From assembly GCF_007558815.1 (NCBI RefSeq), contig NZ_VLTJ01000039.1, positions 558,001-622,000 of the forward strand: 64,000 nt of DNA, written 5' to 3'. The stretch comes from Verticiella sediminum (GTDB lineage Bacteria > Pseudomonadota > Gammaproteobacteria > Burkholderiales > Burkholderiaceae_B). Shown here piece after piece: positions 12,568-61,967 of this stretch. The stretch's first letter is position 1. Each line of letters begins with the position of its first letter. Made by a program: the position numbers and the translations under genes. Below the pieces are notes generated by a model, which saw nothing but the letters and a program-made list of their open reading frames with translations, had not been told where the DNA came from and did no database searches.

Positions 12568-13179
12568 TCAGGGCAGTTGCAGCGTCGTCTGCGCCGGGGT
12601 GGCCACGCCGCCGCTCTGTCCGCTCGGGGTCACGGCTTGCCAGCGCAGTTCCGTGGTCTGGGGGAAGGCCTTGAAGACACCGAGGGCGAGCGAGGGCGGA
12701 ATCGCGTCCGGGCACTCGAAGCGGTAGGTGGCCTCCCAGTCGGTGTGGCCATGGTCGTCGTGATCGTGGTGATCCTCGTCGCCGTGCGCCGTCTTCGCGT
12801 CGGCGGCGCCGTGCGCGTGCGCGTCCTTCGCATGGCCGTGATCATGGTCATGGTCATGGTCGTGATCGTGGTCATGGTCGCCGTCGGGAGCGTCCACCTC
12901 GACCGACACCTTGCAGGCGGCGAGGCCGCCGAAAAGCGCGGCACCGTCCTGCAGGCTGGCGCGCGTGGCGGCCAGCGCCTCTCGCTCGGCAGCCGTCTGT
13001 GCGGCATGCTCGAAGCCGACGAAGTTGTGCCCAGGGCCGGCCAGCACGATGTCGACGACGCGGCCCTCGATGGCGATGTCGAGGCGGCCGACGCCGTGTT
13101 CATGCGCATGCTGCTCATGGGCGGCAGCGACGGCGGGCAAGGCCAGGCAGAAAGCGAGCAGCGAACGGGACAGGGTCAT
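12568..13179 (-). CDS. zrgA: ZrgA family zinc-binding periplasmic protein (DUF2796)
   Basis: This 203-residue secreted protein binds zinc. A signal peptide (MTLSRSLLAFCLALPAVAAA) is followed by a His cluster (HEQHAHEHG) and, near residues 105-150, a long Asp-His repeat plus further His-rich stretches. The DUF2796 core (GRLDIAIEG, GPGHNFVGFEHA) is clear. I chose the ATG at 13179 because the signal peptide begins there; ATGs at 13200 and 13221 are in frame, but the latter lies in the Zur-box-like sequence. It is first in the operon. The His-rich segment may buffer or capture zinc in the periplasm for the ABC pair. Confidence 0.9.
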   Translation of the reverse strand: MTLSRSLLAFCLALPAVAAAHEQHAHEHGVGRLDIAIEGRVVDIVLAGPGHNFVGFEHAAQTAAEREALAATRASLQDGAALFGGLAACKVSVEVDAPDGDHDHDHDHDHDHDHGHAKDAHAHGAADAKTAHGDEDHHDHDDHGHTDWEATYRFECPDAIPPSLALGVFKAFPQTTELRWQAVTPSGQSGGVATPAQTTLQLP

Positions 13180-25665: not shown

Positions 25666-26874
25666 ATGATGTCCGCATTTCCAGGCCGTCCGCTGGACAA
25701 CGTCCGCATTCTCGACCTCTCGCGCGTGCTCGCCGGCCCGTGGTGCACCCAGCTCATGGCCGACTTCGGCGCCGACGTGATCAAGGTGGAGCGCCCTGGC
25801 GCCGGCGACGATACCCGCAGTTGGGGCCCGCCTTTCGTCGACCAGGGCGATGGCGAGCGCGTCGCAGCGTATTTCTGCTGCGCCAATCGCGGCAAGAAGT
25901 CCGTGGCGCTCGATATCGGCAATCCGGCGCATCGCGACGCCATCATCGAGCTGGCTGGCCGGGTGGACGTCGTGGTGGAGAACTTCAAGACCGGCACCCT
26001 GGAGCGCTACGGTCTGGGCTACGAGGCGCTGCGCCGCCGCAACCCGCGGCTCGTGTATTGCTCGATCACCGGCTATGGCAAGACGGGCCCGTACGCGGAT
26101 CGTCCGGGCTACGACGCGGTGCTGCAAGGCGTAGCCGGCCTCATGAGCGTGACGGGCGAGAAAGACGGCGAGCCCGGCGCCGGTCCGCAGAAAGTGGGAG
26201 TGCCGCTCACGGACATCCTGACGGGCGTGTACGCGGCCTACGGCATCGTGACCGCGCTCTGGGAGCGCGAACGCAGCGGCGAGGGCCAGCGGATCGATCT
26301 TTCCCTGCTCGACGTGCTGGTGACGTCGATGGCCACGCTCGCGGTGCCTTATTTTGCGTCCGGCGTGGTGCCCACCCGGCAGGGGAACACGCACGCTTCC
26401 GTGGTGCCGAGCGACATCTTTGCGTGCGCCGATGGCCCGATCCTCGTGACCGTCGGCAACGATGCGCAGTTCCGCAAGCTGTGCCAGGCCTTGGCAGCGT
26501 CGGATCTCGCGGCCGACGAACGCTACGCGACCAACGAAGGGCGGGTGCGGCACCGCGAGGCACTGGTGTGCGCGCTGCGCGAACTGATGGCGCATCGGCA
26601 GCGCCTGCCGCTGATCCAGGCGCTGTCGGATGCGGGCGTGCCTGCGGGGCCGCTCAACGACCTGCGTCAGACCTTCGCGGATCCGCAGGTGCAGCATGCC
26701 GGGCTCACGGTCGACTTCCCGCTCGGCCAGGGGGCCGGCGGGCAAGTGAAAGTGCTCGGCAGTCCATTGAAATTTTCGCGCACGCCCGCGCAGTACGATC
26801 GCCCGCCGCCCGGCCTGGGCGAGCACACCGAGGCGGTCATGGCGGCGCTATCGCACGGACGGGAAGGAGCATGA
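25666..26874 (+). CDS. family III CoA transferase (CaiB/BaiF)
   Basis: This 402-residue enzyme moves CoA between carboxylic acids. The N-terminal LSRVLAGPWCTQLMADFGADVIKVE and the catalytic aspartate in PLTDILTGVYAAYG follow formyl-CoA transferase and its relatives. CAGGAG lies 5 bases before the ATG. It starts an operon with two crotonases and a Bug receptor, behind a divergent LysR. The TGA overlaps the ATG of a repeat-borne frame at 26871. The acid it activates is likely the substrate imported by the Bug-associated transporter; that is inferred. Confidence 0.92.
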   Translation: MMSAFPGRPLDNVRILDLSRVLAGPWCTQLMADFGADVIKVERPGAGDDTRSWGPPFVDQGDGERVAAYFCCANRGKKSVALDIGNPAHRDAIIELAGRVDVVVENFKTGTLERYGLGYEALRRRNPRLVYCSITGYGKTGPYADRPGYDAVLQGVAGLMSVTGEKDGEPGAGPQKVGVPLTDILTGVYAAYGIVTALWERERSGEGQRIDLSLLDVLVTSMATLAVPYFASGVVPTRQGNTHASVVPSDIFACADGPILVTVGNDAQFRKLCQALAASDLAADERYATNEGRVRHREALVCALRELMAHRQRLPLIQALSDAGVPAGPLNDLRQTFADPQVQHAGLTVDFPLGQGAGGQVKVLGSPLKFSRTPAQYDRPPPGLGEHTEAVMAALSHGREGA

Positions 26875-27032
26875 GCGCCCCCGCCCGGCCGCCCGAAGGG
26901 GGCGCTCCCTCCCGCGGGGAGGATGTCGCGCAGCGACAGGAGGGCACAGCAGTGAGCGCCCCCGCCCGGCCGCCCGAAGGGGGCGCTCCCTCCCGCGGGG
27001 AGGATGTCGCGCAGCGACAGGAGGGTACAGCA
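26871..27032 (+). repeat. 81-bp tandem duplication, repeat-borne bridging frame
   Basis: Two adjoining copies of an 81-base unit (26871-26951 and 26952-27032) differ at two bases, including the initial A/G. Each begins ATG or GTG AGCGCC and ends with AGGAGGG before GCACAGCAGTG. The unit is 27 codons without a stop, in frame with the crotonase gene, and contains strong hairpins (AGCGCCCCC with GGGGGCGCT; CTCCC with GGGAG). Read from the first ATG it would add two 27-residue repeats (SAPARPPEGGAPSRGEDVAQ-type) to the crotonase. More likely it is a GC-rich intercistronic repeat that supplies the ribosome-binding site. Confidence 0.85.
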
Positions 27033-27785
27033 GTGAGCGCCGCCGTTATCTACGAGGCCGCCGACGGCGTCGCCCTGGTCCGGCTCAATCGGCCCGAGCG
27101 GCACAACGCCGTGAACGAGGACATGCGCGCGGCCTTGCTCGACGCCTGGGCGCGTTTCGAAGCGGACCCGGGCGCGCGGGTAGCCGTCCTTTGCGCTGCG
27201 GGGCAGCGTTCCTTCTGTTCCGGCCGGGACATGGCCGAGCCTTCCGGCATCGGGCACCGGACCTTCCTGCCGATCCTGGGCGACACCGTGTGCGTCAGCA
27301 AGCCGGTCATCGCCGCCGTTCAGGGGGATGCTCTCGGAGGCGGCTGGTTCATGGCGCAGATGTGCGATCTCGTGGTCGCCGCCGAACACGTCCGTTTCGG
27401 GCTGCCCGAGGTCAAGGTGGGGCGCGTCCCTGCGTGGGCGGCGCAGTTGCGCGGCATGATCGGCGAGAAGCACATGCTCCAGGTCATGCTCACCGGCACG
27501 CCCATTTCTGCCGCCGACGCGCTGCGCATGGGGCTGGTGAACGCCGTGGTGCCGGACGAGGCGGTCATGGATGTCGCGATGCACTGGGCCGCGGCCATCG
27601 CCGCGAATGCGCCGCTGGCGCTCGCCGCGGCCAAGAGGATCGTCTACGAGAGCGCCGGGCTGGACCGCGCGAGCGCCTTGGAACATGCGTTCGAACTCGC
27701 CAGGCCCGTGCTGCACAGCGCGGATGCGGCCGAGGGCCTGGCGGCATTTCGCGAGAAGCGTGCCCCGGTGTGGCGGGGCAGATGA
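27033..27785 (+). CDS. enoyl-CoA hydratase/isomerase (crotonase) family protein
   Basis: This 250-residue crotonase acts on CoA thioesters, usually adding water to an enoyl-CoA or isomerising it. The oxyanion-hole segments are SFCSGRDMAE and QGDALGGGWFMAQMCDLVVA, and GLPEVKVG carries a candidate catalytic glutamate. The start is the GTG at 27033 with GGAGGGT 7 bases upstream; earlier in-frame starts at 26871 and 26952 would add duplicated 27-residue segments that do not belong to the fold. It lies between the CoA transferase and a second crotonase. Confidence 0.85.
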   Translation: MSAAVIYEAADGVALVRLNRPERHNAVNEDMRAALLDAWARFEADPGARVAVLCAAGQRSFCSGRDMAEPSGIGHRTFLPILGDTVCVSKPVIAAVQGDALGGGWFMAQMCDLVVAAEHVRFGLPEVKVGRVPAWAAQLRGMIGEKHMLQVMLTGTPISAADALRMGLVNAVVPDEAVMDVAMHWAAAIAANAPLALAAAKRIVYESAGLDRASALEHAFELARPVLHSADAAEGLAAFREKRAPVWRGR

Positions 27786-27815
27786 AGGCGCATGAGTCGC
27801 CGGGAGGAGATGCTG

Positions 27816-28628
27816 ATGATGCAGGCAGGACAACCCTTTCTCGATGTCGAGGTCCAGGAGCACGTGGCCGTGGTCCGGCTGAACCGGCCGGAACGACGCA
27901 ACGCCTTGAGCGAGCCCGGGGTGCCGGGCGAGTTCGAGGCGCTCGTGGACCGGCTGAATCAGGACATGGAGGTGCGCGTCGCCATCCTGACGGGCGCAGG
28001 GACGGCGTTCTCGTCGGGAGGCAACGTCAAGACCATGCTCGCGCGCAATGGCCCGGGCAGCGGGCCCGTGGCGGCCGTCCCGGGCCGGTACGCCAGCGGC
28101 ATTCAGCGTGTGACGCGCGCCCTGTTCCGTCTGAACGTGCCCGTCATTGCCGCCATCAACGGGGCGGCCACGGGCGCCGGGCTGGACCTGGCCTGCATGT
28201 GCGACATGCGCATCGCGGCGCGCTCGGCCAGGCTGGCCGAAAGCTTCATCCGGCTGGGTATCGTGCCCGGTGACGGTGGCGCGTGGGTCCTGCCGCGACT
28301 GATCGGCGATGCGCGTGCGAGAGAGATGGCTTTCACTGGCGACGCCATCGACGCCGACACGGCGCTCGCCTGGGGACTGGTGTCCCAGGTGGTCGACGAC
28401 GCAGGGCTGATGCCAGCGGCAATGGCCCTGGCTGCCCGGGTGGCCAGGAACGCGCCGTACCAGTTGCGCTTCACCAAGCAGTTGTTCCGCGATTGTCGCG
28501 ACATGGATCTGGATCGTGCACTCGAGATGTCGGGGCTGTACCAGGCCATGTCGCACTGGACCGAGGATCACGCGGAAGGCGTCGCCGCGGCGCTCGACAA
28601 GCGGATGCCGGTATTCAAGGGACATTGA
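27816..28628 (+). CDS. enoyl-CoA hydratase/isomerase (crotonase) family protein
   Basis: This 270-residue crotonase has the oxyanion motifs AFSSGGNVKTM and INGAATGAGLDLACMCD and the active-site region AESFIRLGIVPGDGG, where an aspartate takes the place often held by the second glutamate. Such variants are more often isomerases than hydratases. GGGAGGAG sits 6 bases before the ATG at 27816; ATGs at 27792, 27810 and 27819 are alternatives. It shows only moderate likeness to the crotonase upstream, so the two probably act at different steps of one pathway rather than being a recent duplication. Confidence 0.88.
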   Translation: MMQAGQPFLDVEVQEHVAVVRLNRPERRNALSEPGVPGEFEALVDRLNQDMEVRVAILTGAGTAFSSGGNVKTMLARNGPGSGPVAAVPGRYASGIQRVTRALFRLNVPVIAAINGAATGAGLDLACMCDMRIAARSARLAESFIRLGIVPGDGGAWVLPRLIGDARAREMAFTGDAIDADTALAWGLVSQVVDDAGLMPAAMALAARVARNAPYQLRFTKQLFRDCRDMDLDRALEMSGLYQAMSHWTEDHAEGVAAALDKRMPVFKGH

Positions 28629-28685
28629 CGCCGGCGCAGCGCCGGTGCGAACACTTCGACGAAAAGAACGTTCAGGAGACTAGAA

Positions 28686-28922
28686 ATGAAACGACCCCCA
28701 ACGCTCACTGCGTTCGCTGCCCCCGAGGGTGCCTCAGCCTCCTTCGGGCGGCCGTGCGGAAAGGAAGTGCCCCCACGCTCACTGCGTTCGCTGCCCCCCA
28801 AGGGTGCCTCAGCCTCCTTCGGGCGGCCGTGCGGAAAGGAAGTGCCCCCCACGCTCACTGCGTTCGCTGCCCCCCAAGGGGGCCTCAGCCTCCTTCGGGC
28901 GGCCGTGCGGAGACTGAAATGA
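28686..28922 (+). repeat. tandem GC-rich repeat array with bridging ORF
   Basis: Three copies of a 74-76-base unit start at 28701, 28775 and 28851 (each opening ACGCTCACTGCGTTCGCTGC and containing CTCCTTCGGGCGGCCGTGCGGA). They differ mainly in the length of a C-run. A 78-codon open frame, ATG at 28686, runs through all copies and its TGA overlaps the Bug gene's ATG; the last unit supplies GGAG 8 bases before that ATG. A related single copy is at 61007-61087. Whether the peptide (MKRPPTLTAF...) is made is unknown; I regard it as repeat-derived. Confidence 0.8.
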
Positions 28923-29899
28923 AGACAAATATCATGCGCCGTGCGGCGCTTGGCGCGGCGCTGGCCGTGCTTGGCCTGGTCCAGGCGAATGTTGCGCTCG
29001 CGGAATCGACCACGCCGGTCAATGTGGTCGTCGCGTTCCCGCCGGGCGGCCCGGCGGATCGGATCGCCCGGGTGCTGGCGCAGCACCTGAGCGAGGCGCT
29101 GGGACGCAATGTGTTGGTCGAGAACCGACCGGGTGCGAGCGGCATGATCGCCGCGAGCTACGTGGCGCGTTCCTCCGACCCCGACAGCACGCTGTTCCTC
29201 TCCAATGCCGGAGCGCTCACGATCAACCCCGCGCTCTATCACGACTTGAGCTACGACCCCGCCAAGGATTTCAAGGCGGTGTCCATGGTGGCGGACACCA
29301 CCACCGTCATGGTCACCTGGGCCCCCACCGAGATCGGCGACGCAGCCGATCTGGTCAAGCAGGCCAGGGGGGGCAAGGAGTTCAGCGCCGGGTCCTCCGG
29401 CGTCGGCGGCGCATCGCATCTGAGCCTGGAGATGTTCCAGGAAGGCGCGGACATCAAGCTGTTGCACATTCCGTACAAGGGCGCTTCGCCGGCCCTGACC
29501 GATCTGGTGGGTCGGCGCGTGGACGTGTTCTTCGGTGATCTTCCTGGCGTGCAGGCACTGATCGAAGGCGGCAAGCTCAAGCCCCTCGGGGTGGCGGCGG
29601 AACAGCCGTCAGCGCTGCTGCCCGGCGTCAAGACCTTGGAGGAGCAGGGCATTGCGGGCGTGGTTCCGAGCGGCTGGTACGGCGTGGTGATGCCCGCCGC
29701 GGCATCGGACGAGCAGGTGCAGCGAATGTCCGACGGCATTCACAAGGCGTTGAGCGGCGCCAAGGTGCAGCAGCAGTTGCAGGCGATGGGCGCCGTGGCG
29801 ACGCCCAATTCCCCCGCCGAGTTCCAGGATTTCCTGGCGAACGATGCCCGACGCTGGCAGGCGTTGGTGACCCGGCGCGGCATACAGGCAAGCCAGTAG
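28919..29899 (+). CDS. Bug-family periplasmic solute receptor (TTT type)
   Basis: This 326-residue periplasmic binding protein belongs to the Bug/TctC family, which captures carboxylates for tripartite tricarboxylate transporters. The signal peptide (MRRAALGAALAVLGLVQA region, cleavage near ALAE) is followed by VNVVVAFPPGGPADRIAR, VENRPGASGMIAA and IPYKGASPALTDLVGRRVD, the family ligand loops. No TctA/TctB membrane genes are in the window, as is common for Bug receptors. It is the last gene of the CoA-transferase operon and presumably binds the operon's substrate. Translation is probably coupled to the repeat-borne frame upstream. Confidence 0.92.
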   Translation: MKTNIMRRAALGAALAVLGLVQANVALAESTTPVNVVVAFPPGGPADRIARVLAQHLSEALGRNVLVENRPGASGMIAASYVARSSDPDSTLFLSNAGALTINPALYHDLSYDPAKDFKAVSMVADTTTVMVTWAPTEIGDAADLVKQARGGKEFSAGSSGVGGASHLSLEMFQEGADIKLLHIPYKGASPALTDLVGRRVDVFFGDLPGVQALIEGGKLKPLGVAAEQPSALLPGVKTLEEQGIAGVVPSGWYGVVMPAAASDEQVQRMSDGIHKALSGAKVQQQLQAMGAVATPNSPAEFQDFLANDARRWQALVTRRGIQASQ

Positions 29900-59531: not shown

Positions 59532-59688
59532 GGTCTCTCTCCGGCTTTCCAGGTTGGGACATTTGCCGAAAACGCCGGTGCCGACCGTCCCAAGTGGTCT
59601 GCGCAGTGAAGGCGAATTGGCTATTACCGTGCGATGGCCGCAAGGCCACAATCATTTCTCCAGCACCTCGACCGGCAGGACATACCAA

Positions 59689-60861
59689 ATGCACTCCTTG
59701 GCTTCGGAACTACCGTCAGGGCCATCTGACATCCAGGCGAGTACCGCGGCTCAACCGTCTGTCGAACAGATTCGCAGCGACCTGCCCGCAAAGTCGGTCA
59801 GCCTGATCGGGATCACCAAGCACTATGGGGGCAACGTGGTGCTCAAGCCGCTGAGCCTGGAGATCCGGCCGGGCGAACTGCTCGCGCTGCTCGGCCCGTC
59901 CGGCTGCGGCAAGACCACCACGCTGCGCGTGCTGGCGGGCTTCGTATCGCCGGACAGCGGCACCGTGCGGCTGGACGGCGAGGACGTCACCGACGTGCCG
60001 CCCAATCTGCGCGGCCTCGGGATGGTCTTCCAGTCGTACAGCCTGTTCCCGCACATGACCGTGCTCGAGAACGTGGCGTTCGGGCTGCGCATGCGCGGCG
60101 TGCCGGCGTCCCGGCGTACCGCACCGGTGCGCGAAATGCTGGAGCTGGTGCGGCTGGGCGACTATGCCGACCGCTATCCGTCCCAGCTCTCCGGCGGCCA
60201 GCAGCAGCGCGTGGCCCTGGCACGCGCCCTCGTCACCCGCCCGTCCGTGCTGCTCCTGGACGAGCCGCTCGGCGCACTCGACAAGAACCTGCGCGAGCGT
60301 ATGCAGTTCGAGATCCGCGCCCTGCAGCGCAGTCTGGGCATCACCACCGTCCTGGTCACGCACGACCAGGAGGAAGCGATGACCATGAGCGACCGGATCG
60401 CCGTCATGTCCGGCGGCGAGATCATTCAGATCGGCGAGCCGGCGAGTATCTACGCCAGGCCGAAGAACCGCTTCGTCTCCGAGTTCCTGGGTACCTCGAA
60501 CCTGCTCGAAGGCACCTGCATGGGGCGGGACCCGCAGGGCCGCGTGCTGGTGCGCCTGGATCTCAACGGGCGTATCAACGCCGGCAGCCTGCCGCCCGGC
60601 GTGGACGACTGCCCGGAAGGCGCCCGAGTCGCCCTGGCGGTCCGGCCCGAGCACCTGGTGGTGCAGGCGTCGCCCTCGTTCGGCGTCGAGTGCGTGCTCG
60701 AGAGCCGCATATTCCGCGGCAGTTACTGTGTCTACGAACTGCAGGCGGGTGCCGGGACCAAACTGATCGCGTTCACCCAGGTGCCGGACGAGTCGATAGG
60801 CATCGGCGATCAGGTCCAGGTCTCCTGGCAGGTCGAACAAGCCGTCGTCCTGGTGGACTGA
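59689..60861 (+). CDS. PotA-type ABC ATP-binding protein
   Basis: This 390-residue ATPase of the spermidine/putrescine (PotA) class powers the importer. The Walker A is GPSGCGKTT, the signature [15 protein letters not shown] and the Walker [12 protein letters not shown], with the [11 protein letters not shown]-loop. A C-terminal TOBE domain (from about residue 300) follows. The ATG at 59689 has AGGA 9 bases upstream. A repeat-derived frame begins 2 bases after the stop. Confidence 0.93.
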
Positions 60862-60862
60862 G

Positions 60863-61087
60863 ATGAAGGCCCACCCCCTACGCGCTGACGCGCGCCCCCT
60901 CAAGGGGGCGGCACTGGCGGACCGGCAAAGCCGGCTCCGCGGTGCCCTGGATCGCATCGCCGCAGTTTCATGCGTCGAGGGTGGCGCGCAGCGCCATGGA
61001 ACTGAGATGAAACGACCCTCGCGCTCACTGCGTTCGCTGCCCCCCGGGCGGGCTTCAGCCGCCTTCGGGCGAGCGTGCGGAGGCTGA
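60863..61087 (+). repeat. composite intercistronic repeat with 74-codon frame
   Basis: Two dispersed repeat types lie between the ABC ATPase and the first permease. The first (60868-60950) has the hairpin GCCCCCT-CA-AGGGGGC and GCCGGC arms. The second (61007-61087) begins ATGAAACGACC and matches the array unit at 28686-28922 (GCTCACTGCGTTCGCTGCCC, TTCGGGC). An open frame from 60863 runs through both and ends one base before the permease ATG, and the second part supplies GGAGG. It is probably a repeat rather than a gene. Confidence 0.75.
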
Positions 61088-61088
61088 G

Positions 61089-61967
61089 ATGACTTCATCC
61101 GCTTTGCGACGCGTCCTGACCGCTCGCCGGCCCGCACGGGAAGACTACAGCGCCACGCGGCGCCGATGGATGCTGCCGGCGCTGCTGCTGCTCGGCATGT
61201 TCTTCGTCGCGCCGCTCGTCTACAACGGCTGGCGCAGCATGACAGAGGAGGGCGCGGCGGCCGACCCGCTCTTCTACTACGCCAAGCTGCTTGGCGACCC
61301 GTATTACCGCGAGGTGCTCTGGAGAACGCTGTACGTCAGCTTCACCGTCACGCTGCTGTGCCTGGTGGCAAGCTACCCGGTGGCCTACTTCATGGTGCGC
61401 CGCGCCGGGCGGTGGCAGCCGCTGATCATCTTCTGCCTGATCGCGCCGCTGCTGACCTCGATCATCATGCGCACGCTCGGCATCCGTCTGCTGCTCGCGC
61501 GCCAGGGCGCATTCAACGCGGTTCTCGAGTCGGTAGGGCTGCCCAGCCTGCCGGGCTGGATGGCGAGCGGGGTGTTTCCCGTCTATCTCGGGATGATCCA
61601 CGTGCTTATCCCCTTCATGGTCCTGTCCATCGCACCGGTCATCCAGCGCATCGAGCCGGCGCTGGAGGAGGCCGCAGGCATCCTCGGCGCGAGCAAATGG
61701 CGCGTGTTCTGGCACGTGACGCTGCCGCTGAGCCGTGAGGGCATCTACGCCGGCTGCATCCTGGTCTTCATGCTCTCGAACGGCAGCTTCGTGACGCAGC
61801 TCCTGCTCGGTGCCGGCAAGATGACCACGCTGCCCGTGCTCATCTTCCAGCAGTTCAACGTCACCATGGACACCGCGTTCGCCGGCGCGATGGGCAACGT
61901 TCTGCTGATCCTCACGCTCGGCTGCCTGTTCGTGCAGTCCGTGCTCACCGGCCGCCGCCGAGGATGA
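61089..61967 (+). CDS. PotB-type ABC permease
   Basis: This 292-residue inner-membrane permease has about six helices and the EAA-loop EEAAGILGASKWRVFWHVTLPLS near residues 195-217, which couples to the ATPase. The N-terminus is polar (MTSSALRRVLTARRPARED), then the helix LLLLGMFFVAPLVYNGW. It is the first of the two permeases. The start is 1 base after the stop of a repeat-borne frame that supplies the GGAGG site. Confidence 0.93.
   Translation: MTSSALRRVLTARRPAREDYSATRRRWMLPALLLLGMFFVAPLVYNGWRSMTEEGAAADPLFYYAKLLGDPYYREVLWRTLYVSFTVTLLCLVASYPVAYFMVRRAGRWQPLIIFCLIAPLLTSIIMRTLGIRLLLARQGAFNAVLESVGLPSLPGWMASGVFPVYLGMIHVLIPFMVLSIAPVIQRIEPALEEAAGILGASKWRVFWHVTLPLSREGIYAGCILVFMLSNGSFVTQLLLGAGKMTTLPVLIFQQFNVTMDTAFAGAMGNVLLILTLGCLFVQSVLTGRRRG

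Follow-up and report, generated by a model that had tools for sequence, protein, structure and literature searches.

The 64,000 nucleotides of Verticiella sediminum DNA analysed here (hereafter the window) contain a tandem array of a short repeat, which we call F1, between an enoyl-CoA hydratase/isomerase gene and the gene of a tripartite tricarboxylate receptor. The array and its neighbours are as follows:

27792..28628, + strand: enoyl-CoA hydratase/isomerase gene, 5' of the array, with its stop 57 nt ahead of it
28673..28679, + strand: CAGGAGA, Shine-Dalgarno-like, 5' of the first ATG of the array (read directly in the sequence)
28686..28922, + strand: F1 array of three copies, with a 78-codon mini-ORF whose end overlaps the receptor gene in an ATGA
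28686..28768, + strand: F1 copy 1, with the head ATGAAACGACC
28769..28844, + strand: F1 copy 2
28845..28922, + strand: F1 copy 3, whose end gives GGAGACTGAA and the ATG that starts the receptor gene
28919..29899, + strand: TctC/Bug tripartite tricarboxylate receptor gene, 3' of the array (Pfam PF03401, E 5e-52)

The three copies stand in register with spacings of 75 and 76, and TRF reports a period of 76, 2.9 copies and 95% matches. As the first-pass annotation of this DNA had described, the copies differ in the length of a run of C, an uninterrupted 78-codon ATG frame passes through all three of them (28686-28922), and the TGA of this mini-ORF (28920-28922) overlaps the ATG of the receptor gene (28919-28921) in an ATGA. 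The open frame by itself was discarded as evidence because a frame just as open turns up in 25% of composition shuffles and among 47% of the 77-codon frames picked at random in the window. The 18-mer which that annotation had named occurs four times in the window, compared with 0.26 expected from shuffles, and the fourth occurrence lies in a further copy at 61007.

As the array starts 57 nt past the upstream stop, at an ATG with a CAGGAGA of its own, it reads as an insertion at the original start of the receptor gene. The CAGGAGA at 28673-28679 is probably the original ribosome site of the receptor gene, and the F1 array at 28686 has probably taken over the gene's own ribosome-binding site and start and given it a new start. 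A search of the window against Rfam at the gathering threshold returned only a tRNA and no curated RNA family for the array, by which a known RNA family was ruled out; below the threshold, two weak matches (E 0.52 and 2.2) fall within 28500-29100. TRF also picked out a tract of 6- and 24-base repeats (CATGGT units) at 12831-12893 of the window.

The window holds a single further copy of F1 and members of two other families, F2 and F3:

26871..27036, + strand: F3 array (third family), two units of 81 nt
59554..60861, + strand: ABC transporter ATPase gene, upstream of F2
60863..61010, + strand: F2 element (second family), about 147 nt, starting 1 nt past the stop of the ABC ATPase gene
60863..61088, + strand: mini-ORF across F2 and F1, ending beside the permease start
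61007..61092, + strand: single F1 copy, directly 3' of the F2 element
61089..61967, + strand: ABC transporter permease gene (BPD_transp_1), whose start is at the F1 end

The related copy that had been noticed at 61007 does lie in another operon, where it ends at the ATG (61089) of the ABC permease gene. The F3 array at 26871-27036 bridges the CoA-transferase and enoyl-CoA hydratase genes in the same operon as the F1 array; its first ATGA shares bases with the TGA that ends the CoA-transferase gene, and the ORF, which begins on that stop, continues in frame into the next gene. As the F3 units of 81 nt (27 codons) are in frame with that gene, its product might carry N-terminal repeats of 27 residues.

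Copy number and placement of the three families

At least 52 F1, at least 42 F2 and at least 64 F3 matches were found in the 6.0 Mb V. sediminum genome, counts that are possibly low as 40 of the 106 (F1), 130 (F2) and 119 (F3) first-look candidates were scored; three short F1 matches sit within F3 copies. Placement was assessed on the window and 80 requested regions (79 distinct loci), which together hold 135 elements in 94 arrays, with genes called by a codon-usage script on the fetched stretches and with the F2 elements split by another insert (C23:22072/22241 and C26:140810/140921) counted as two arrays each. The orientation bias is strong: 70 of the 94 arrays lie between co-directional genes in the orientation of these genes, while 4 are antisense to both; of the rest, 12 have a convergent gene ahead of them, 6 follow a divergent one and 2 fall within a called gene. 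The 5' end of most arrays is at or over the upstream stop, with the mini-ORF starting there; 64 of the 82 arrays with a co-directional upstream gene start within -12 to +15 nt of its stop, and F3 often overlaps the stop codon itself (ATGAGCGCC). The F1 array of the window, 57 nt from the upstream stop, is an exception to this placement. In this genome-wide search on fetched stretches, the three families are thus far from random relative to genes; neither random placement nor a location mostly outside operons was seen (70 of 94 sense, 4 of 94 antisense), which supports the family of intercistronic elements proposed in the first-pass annotation. At the 12 arrays that face a convergent gene, coupling to the next gene cannot be the role of the element. 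An F3 array of four units, each ending in ATGA, was seen at another junction of this genome (C17:131367-131709, L155), and its units, like the F3 units at C32:11168-11404 (L170), have GGAGG near their ends.

A scan of genome contigs for the F1 core returned at least 111 stretches, and the 106 core hits with enough flank were used. Hosts among the matches listed include Thauera, Rubrivivax, Ramlibacter, Trinickia, Burkholderia, Zoogloea, Methyloversatilis and others. In these other genome records, 81 of the 106 listed hits lie in sense between co-directional genes and 3 are antisense to both; the remaining listed hits lie before convergent genes (6), after divergent genes (4), inside called genes (8) or at the edge of the stretch (4). 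For 2220 random positions in the same loci the numbers are 198 sense and 61 antisense. F1 probably settles mostly at the stop-start junction of two genes in one operon. A Zoogloea copy lies directly 5' of nifN (NCBIfam gene name).

F1 is also present in 13 plasmid records, 7 of them without a gene table at the place. In five of the six records with a gene table it starts at most 15 nt from an annotated stop, the junctions being gnd-zwf, substrate-binding protein-permease, sensor kinase-methylesterase, succinate dehydrogenase iron-sulfur subunit-assembly factor 2, and UAAP2-urea carboxylase; the sixth has a partial F1 match within an annotated pgk gene, about 100 nt from the gene start. For succinate dehydrogenase assembly factor 2, the start is annotated ahead of F1, and the repeat thus forms part of the annotated protein. 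In this case, on a plasmid of Paraburkholderia largidicola (L460, 1494-1850), the start is possibly wrong.

The exact F1 18-mer is present in 5 of the 268 genomes in the family, with 20 occurrences in V. sediminum and one in each of the others, and a related 20-mer, with 22 occurrences in V. sediminum, is present in 4 of the 399 genomes in the order. These counts rule out that most relatives carry the exact core, for which the V. sediminum genome is a copy-number outlier. F1-like BLAST matches were found in 14 of 19 chosen relatives, many of them partial and some in other contexts. At eight loci (L238, L272, L284, L286, L288, L291, L295 and L300) the F1 head is fused to an F2-like tail (CGGACCGGC..GCCGGATCCG, often with TTTCATGCGTCG), and F1 and F2 look modular, with exchangeable halves.

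Several junctions that are filled in one species are empty in another. At fliF-fliG, three F3 units in V. sediminum (C32:11168-11404, L170) correspond to an overlapping stop and start in a genome of the same genus. There, the ileS-lspA and lspA-coaBC junctions, which carry F2 and F1 respectively in V. sediminum, are short gaps, and hisB-hisH, with F1 in V. sediminum, reads TGAGATGAAACG...CTGATATGG in the filled state versus TGACACCATGG in the same-genus genome. By BLAST of fetched loci, these junctions hold none of the three families in the other 29 lspA loci, of which not every one has coaBC adjoining, in the other 29 fliG loci, in the 15 loci of the hisH search or at the corresponding junction in 30 metW loci; gene names at these loci are those of NCBIfam. 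Away from the junctions there were two weak matches of less than 35 nt (L328 and L448). Between metW and the gene upstream of it, which we take to be metX, F1 is present in Thauera aminoaromatica, T. propionica and two further records with the same flanks (L194 and L199 among the loci), and the junction without the cassette is a -4 ATGA overlap in 26 of 30 relatives. The empty sites seen are all differences between species, none of them a strain-level insertion. At one locus (L346, 685-771) an F3-like element was seen among the clustered flagellar genes, but away from fliF-fliG, at a distance of about 700 nt from fliG.

Mini-ORF frame and terminal hairpin

The frame of the F1 mini-ORF was followed, from a start codon chosen close to the upstream stop, at the 30 of the 106 listed core hits that have a stop and a start at the expected distances. 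The mini-ORF usually ends next to the downstream start: at 25 of these 30 selected junctions from other genomes, its first stop falls within -12 to +6 nt of that start, while the other frames of the same junctions give 1 of 30 (frame +1) and 6 of 30 (frame +2). At L297 the start chosen is a GTG inside the upstream gene, an artefact which is counted as a miss among the 30. A TGA, one base and the start follow one another at 14 of 30, and a -4 overlap is found at 4 of 30. All three reading frames of the F1 core are in use, giving peptides with RSLRSLPPEG, LTAFAAPRGG or AHCVRCPRG. Among the seven copies outside the main frame (L297 left out), five end at the junction, one ends 16 nt before the start (L287) and one reads on in frame with the next gene (L235). 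That off-frame copies still end at the junction implies that the end of translation tends to be kept and the peptide does not. A functional peptide was considered unlikely, as the same core is used in three frames.

In V. sediminum itself the frame signal is weaker. The test there covers 51 junctions, of which 4 have no start codon at the stop, and sets aside 19 arrays as too far from stop or start; the array of the window is among these because of the 57 nt to the upstream stop. With the three families taken together, the mini-ORF stops at the next start at 21 of 47 junctions in frame 0, at 0 of 47 in frame +1 and at 7 of 47 in frame +2, numbers that, like those from the other genomes, do not represent independent events because the copies are related by descent. 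By family, the counts for stopping at the next start are 8 of 11 for F1, 8 of 19 for F2 and 5 of 17 for F3, where in 8 of 17 the frame continues into the next gene. Frame +2 is often open into the next gene, at 6 of 11 F1 and 6 of 19 F2 junctions.

The 3' part of F1 consists of a conserved loop near TTSGGGCGGCCSGGC between two arms that differ greatly among copies but remain complementary, and this covarying hairpin ends in or beside the stop of the mini-ORF and the downstream start. Pairing was scored over nine bases on each side of the loop without a search for complementarity, for the 105 of 113 elements that have the loop motif. Over 79 distinct arm pairs, 7.62 of the 9 positions pair, versus 4.49 with shuffled partners (maximum 5.04 in 1000), and seven of the nine positions use three or four Watson-Crick pair types. 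One Thauera copy (z -2.1) and one Zoogloea copy (z -3.8) fold better than shuffles, with three hairpins. The three stretches of the window do not (z -0.65 to -0.80), and the structure predicted for them is not the one with the covarying stem.

A Shine-Dalgarno sequence is present at 9 of the 30 F1 junctions from other genomes and absent at 21. The earlier suggestion that the array supplies the ribosome-binding site of the receptor gene is possible at this locus, where GGAG stands 5' of the receptor start, and it fits the version of the F1 arm found in V. sediminum, but not the family; as a general role of F1, the supply of a Shine-Dalgarno sequence is ruled out by the 21 of 30 junctions without one. 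Restart by a terminating ribosome fits the family better than the supply of a binding site, given these 21 junctions.

Proposed translational coupling and its alternatives

We consider it rather probable that F1, and by their placement F2 and F3, are cassettes, mobile now or formerly, that settle at start codons and would keep the genes of an operon translationally coupled. An effect of the three families on translation is suggested by their anatomy, namely the register with stop and start, the frame of the mini-ORF and the hairpin at the next start. A ribosome ending the upstream gene, or loading at the original ribosome-binding site, would start the mini-ORF on the ATG of the cassette, read through the cassette while melting its hairpins, stop at the terminal stop of the mini-ORF and restart on the overlapping or nearby start. 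The cassette would in this way keep two genes coupled despite moving them tens to hundreds of nucleotides apart; it would use the coupling site as a safe place for insertion, and it may tune the ratio of the two proteins.

A wider formulation, to which we give somewhat less than an even chance, is that the Betaproteobacteria harbour a class of mobile coupling cassettes, with at least three families in one genome, which would have arisen independently of the mycobacterial repeats compared below, insert in stop-start overlaps (ATGA), rebuild the coupling by a mini-ORF whose peptide is unimportant and end in a hairpin rewritten in each lineage. The lineage-rewritten F1 arms would perhaps set how many ribosomes reach the next gene. 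If this is true, insertion of a cassette turns a fixed overlap into an adjustable coupler.

The same anatomy could be produced by purely selfish or neutral inserts that play no part in translation and survive nowhere but in the few bases separating genes, an explanation that we regard as unlikely though deserving of serious attention. The frame, the adjacency of the stop and the nearby start would then come about as side effects, because gaps are short, the target is oriented (such as ATGA) and GC-rich DNA contains few stops. Short gaps before the insertion would by themselves place an insert near both a stop and a start, and this calls for caution about coupling. Open frames are common (25% of shuffles and 47% of random frames), the copies share ancestry, frame +2 is often open too, relatives live without the cassettes, and 12 of the 94 arrays lie before a convergent gene, all of which is as expected of neutral inserts. 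The orientation (70 versus 4 in V. sediminum and 81 versus 3 elsewhere) nevertheless needs an oriented target or selection, and 5 of the 7 off-frame F1 copies end at the junction all the same.

REP and BIME elements are short palindromic intergenic repeats with many copies, associated with RAYT transposases. An mRNA structure element of this kind, with hairpins that protect the ends of the upstream mRNA or set its processing and thereby give the cistrons unequal stability, would account for the strong covariation of the F1 stem, for the three-hairpin folds that beat shuffles in the Thauera and Zoogloea copies (z -2.1 and -3.8) and for the many arrays before convergent genes that also lie closely 3' of the upstream stop. 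It leaves the mini-ORF frame, the termination at the next start and the start and stop codons at the cassette ends unexplained, and with window copies that fold no better than shuffles it seems improbable. The three families also differ from REP/BIME in their strong orientation bias and their register with stop and start. A search of the V. sediminum genome with the Y1_Tnp profile (PF01797) gave 0 matches, while the same search was positive in 5 of 14 control genomes; a REP driven by a RAYT was ruled out on this result. That the repeat is a promoter or a regulated leader for separate expression of the downstream gene is very improbable in our estimate, even with the precedent of the senX3-regX3 repeat region in mycobacteria, for which the relevant passage of one paper describes senX3-independent expression of regX3 (PMC4213456). 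Between 28600 and 28960 no sigma-70-like site was found, which is a weak test as 0.0 were expected in shuffles.

Likeness to known repeats

The nearest functional parallel to the coupling cassette proposed here is the mycobacterial interspersed repetitive unit (MIRU), reportedly described by Supply et al. in 1997. In the passages on MIRUs of a 2025 review (PMC12548453), they are given as a case in which a mobile repeat may exploit translational coupling. According to these passages and parts of a second paper (PMC12548453, PMC4213456), MIRUs are inserted at start codons, their ORF being coupled at a spacing of -4 to the gene at that site, and appear to be mobile with minimal impact on expression; the senX3-regX3 region of H37Rv has three tandem 77-bp MIRUs, and regX3 is expressed independently of senX3 (PMC4213456). 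As far as these descriptions go, the likeness extends to short interspersed units between co-directional genes in the same orientation (70 of 94 arrays in V. sediminum, 81 of 106 listed hits elsewhere), an internal ORF that ends at the start of the next gene (25 of 30 for F1; 21 of 47 for all families in V. sediminum), insertion sites that are start codons or stop-start overlaps and stand empty in relatives, and tandem units in one operon gap as in the F1 array. Unlike the MIRU as described there, F1 ends in a hairpin whose arms differ by lineage, stops 1 nt before the next ATG at 14 of 30 junctions and at -4 in 4 of 30, and shares its genome with two further families; the hosts belong to different phyla. 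F1 is therefore filed as an element that would work like a MIRU and not as a MIRU, the two being likened by description with no claim of sequence homology. If the coupling reading is true, it adds a second MIRU-like case in an unrelated phylum, and the filled and empty states of core operons (hisB-hisH, fliF-fliG, ileS-lspA-coaBC and metX-metW) are natural before-and-after pairs, with which to ask if stop-start overlaps are of consequence and if protein ratios can be altered by a cassette. The cassettes could also explain some doubtful annotation of start codons beside such repeats.

In the collection of papers searched, neither the F1 core strings (two of 18 bases and two of 16) nor repeats and coupling in combination returned a paper. 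By description, the beta-proteobacterial repeat element (BRE) of Hot et al. 2011 (PMC3110155) is close: in the parts of that paper used here, it is 75-91 bp long, GC-rich and tandem, it is scattered in Bordetella and other Betaproteobacteria with variable copy number and judged possibly mobile, and some copies overlap the ends of ORFs by a few bases. Table 3 of the paper places 9 of 13 loci between co-directional genes, 4 of 13 between convergent and 0 between divergent genes (PMC3110155), orientations that resemble F1 placement, and F1 units likewise are about 75-86 nt long, tandem and found in betaproteobacterial hosts. By contrast, section 14 of the same source mentions neither a stop-start rule nor a mini-ORF nor a covarying hairpin, and offers no function (PMC3110155). 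By these descriptions, F1 may be the same element as BRE. The placement of F1 provides a positional rule for trying on BRE, whose authors, in the parts used here, proposed no function (PMC3110155). A wider group of repeats with another head (CCCCCACGCTGCGC...GCTTGCTGCCCCCCGAGGGGGC) and a terminal hairpin was seen in relatives (L374, L378, L389 and L391), where two or three members have T- and A-rich, terminator-like arms; this group may resemble the published BRE more closely than F1 does.
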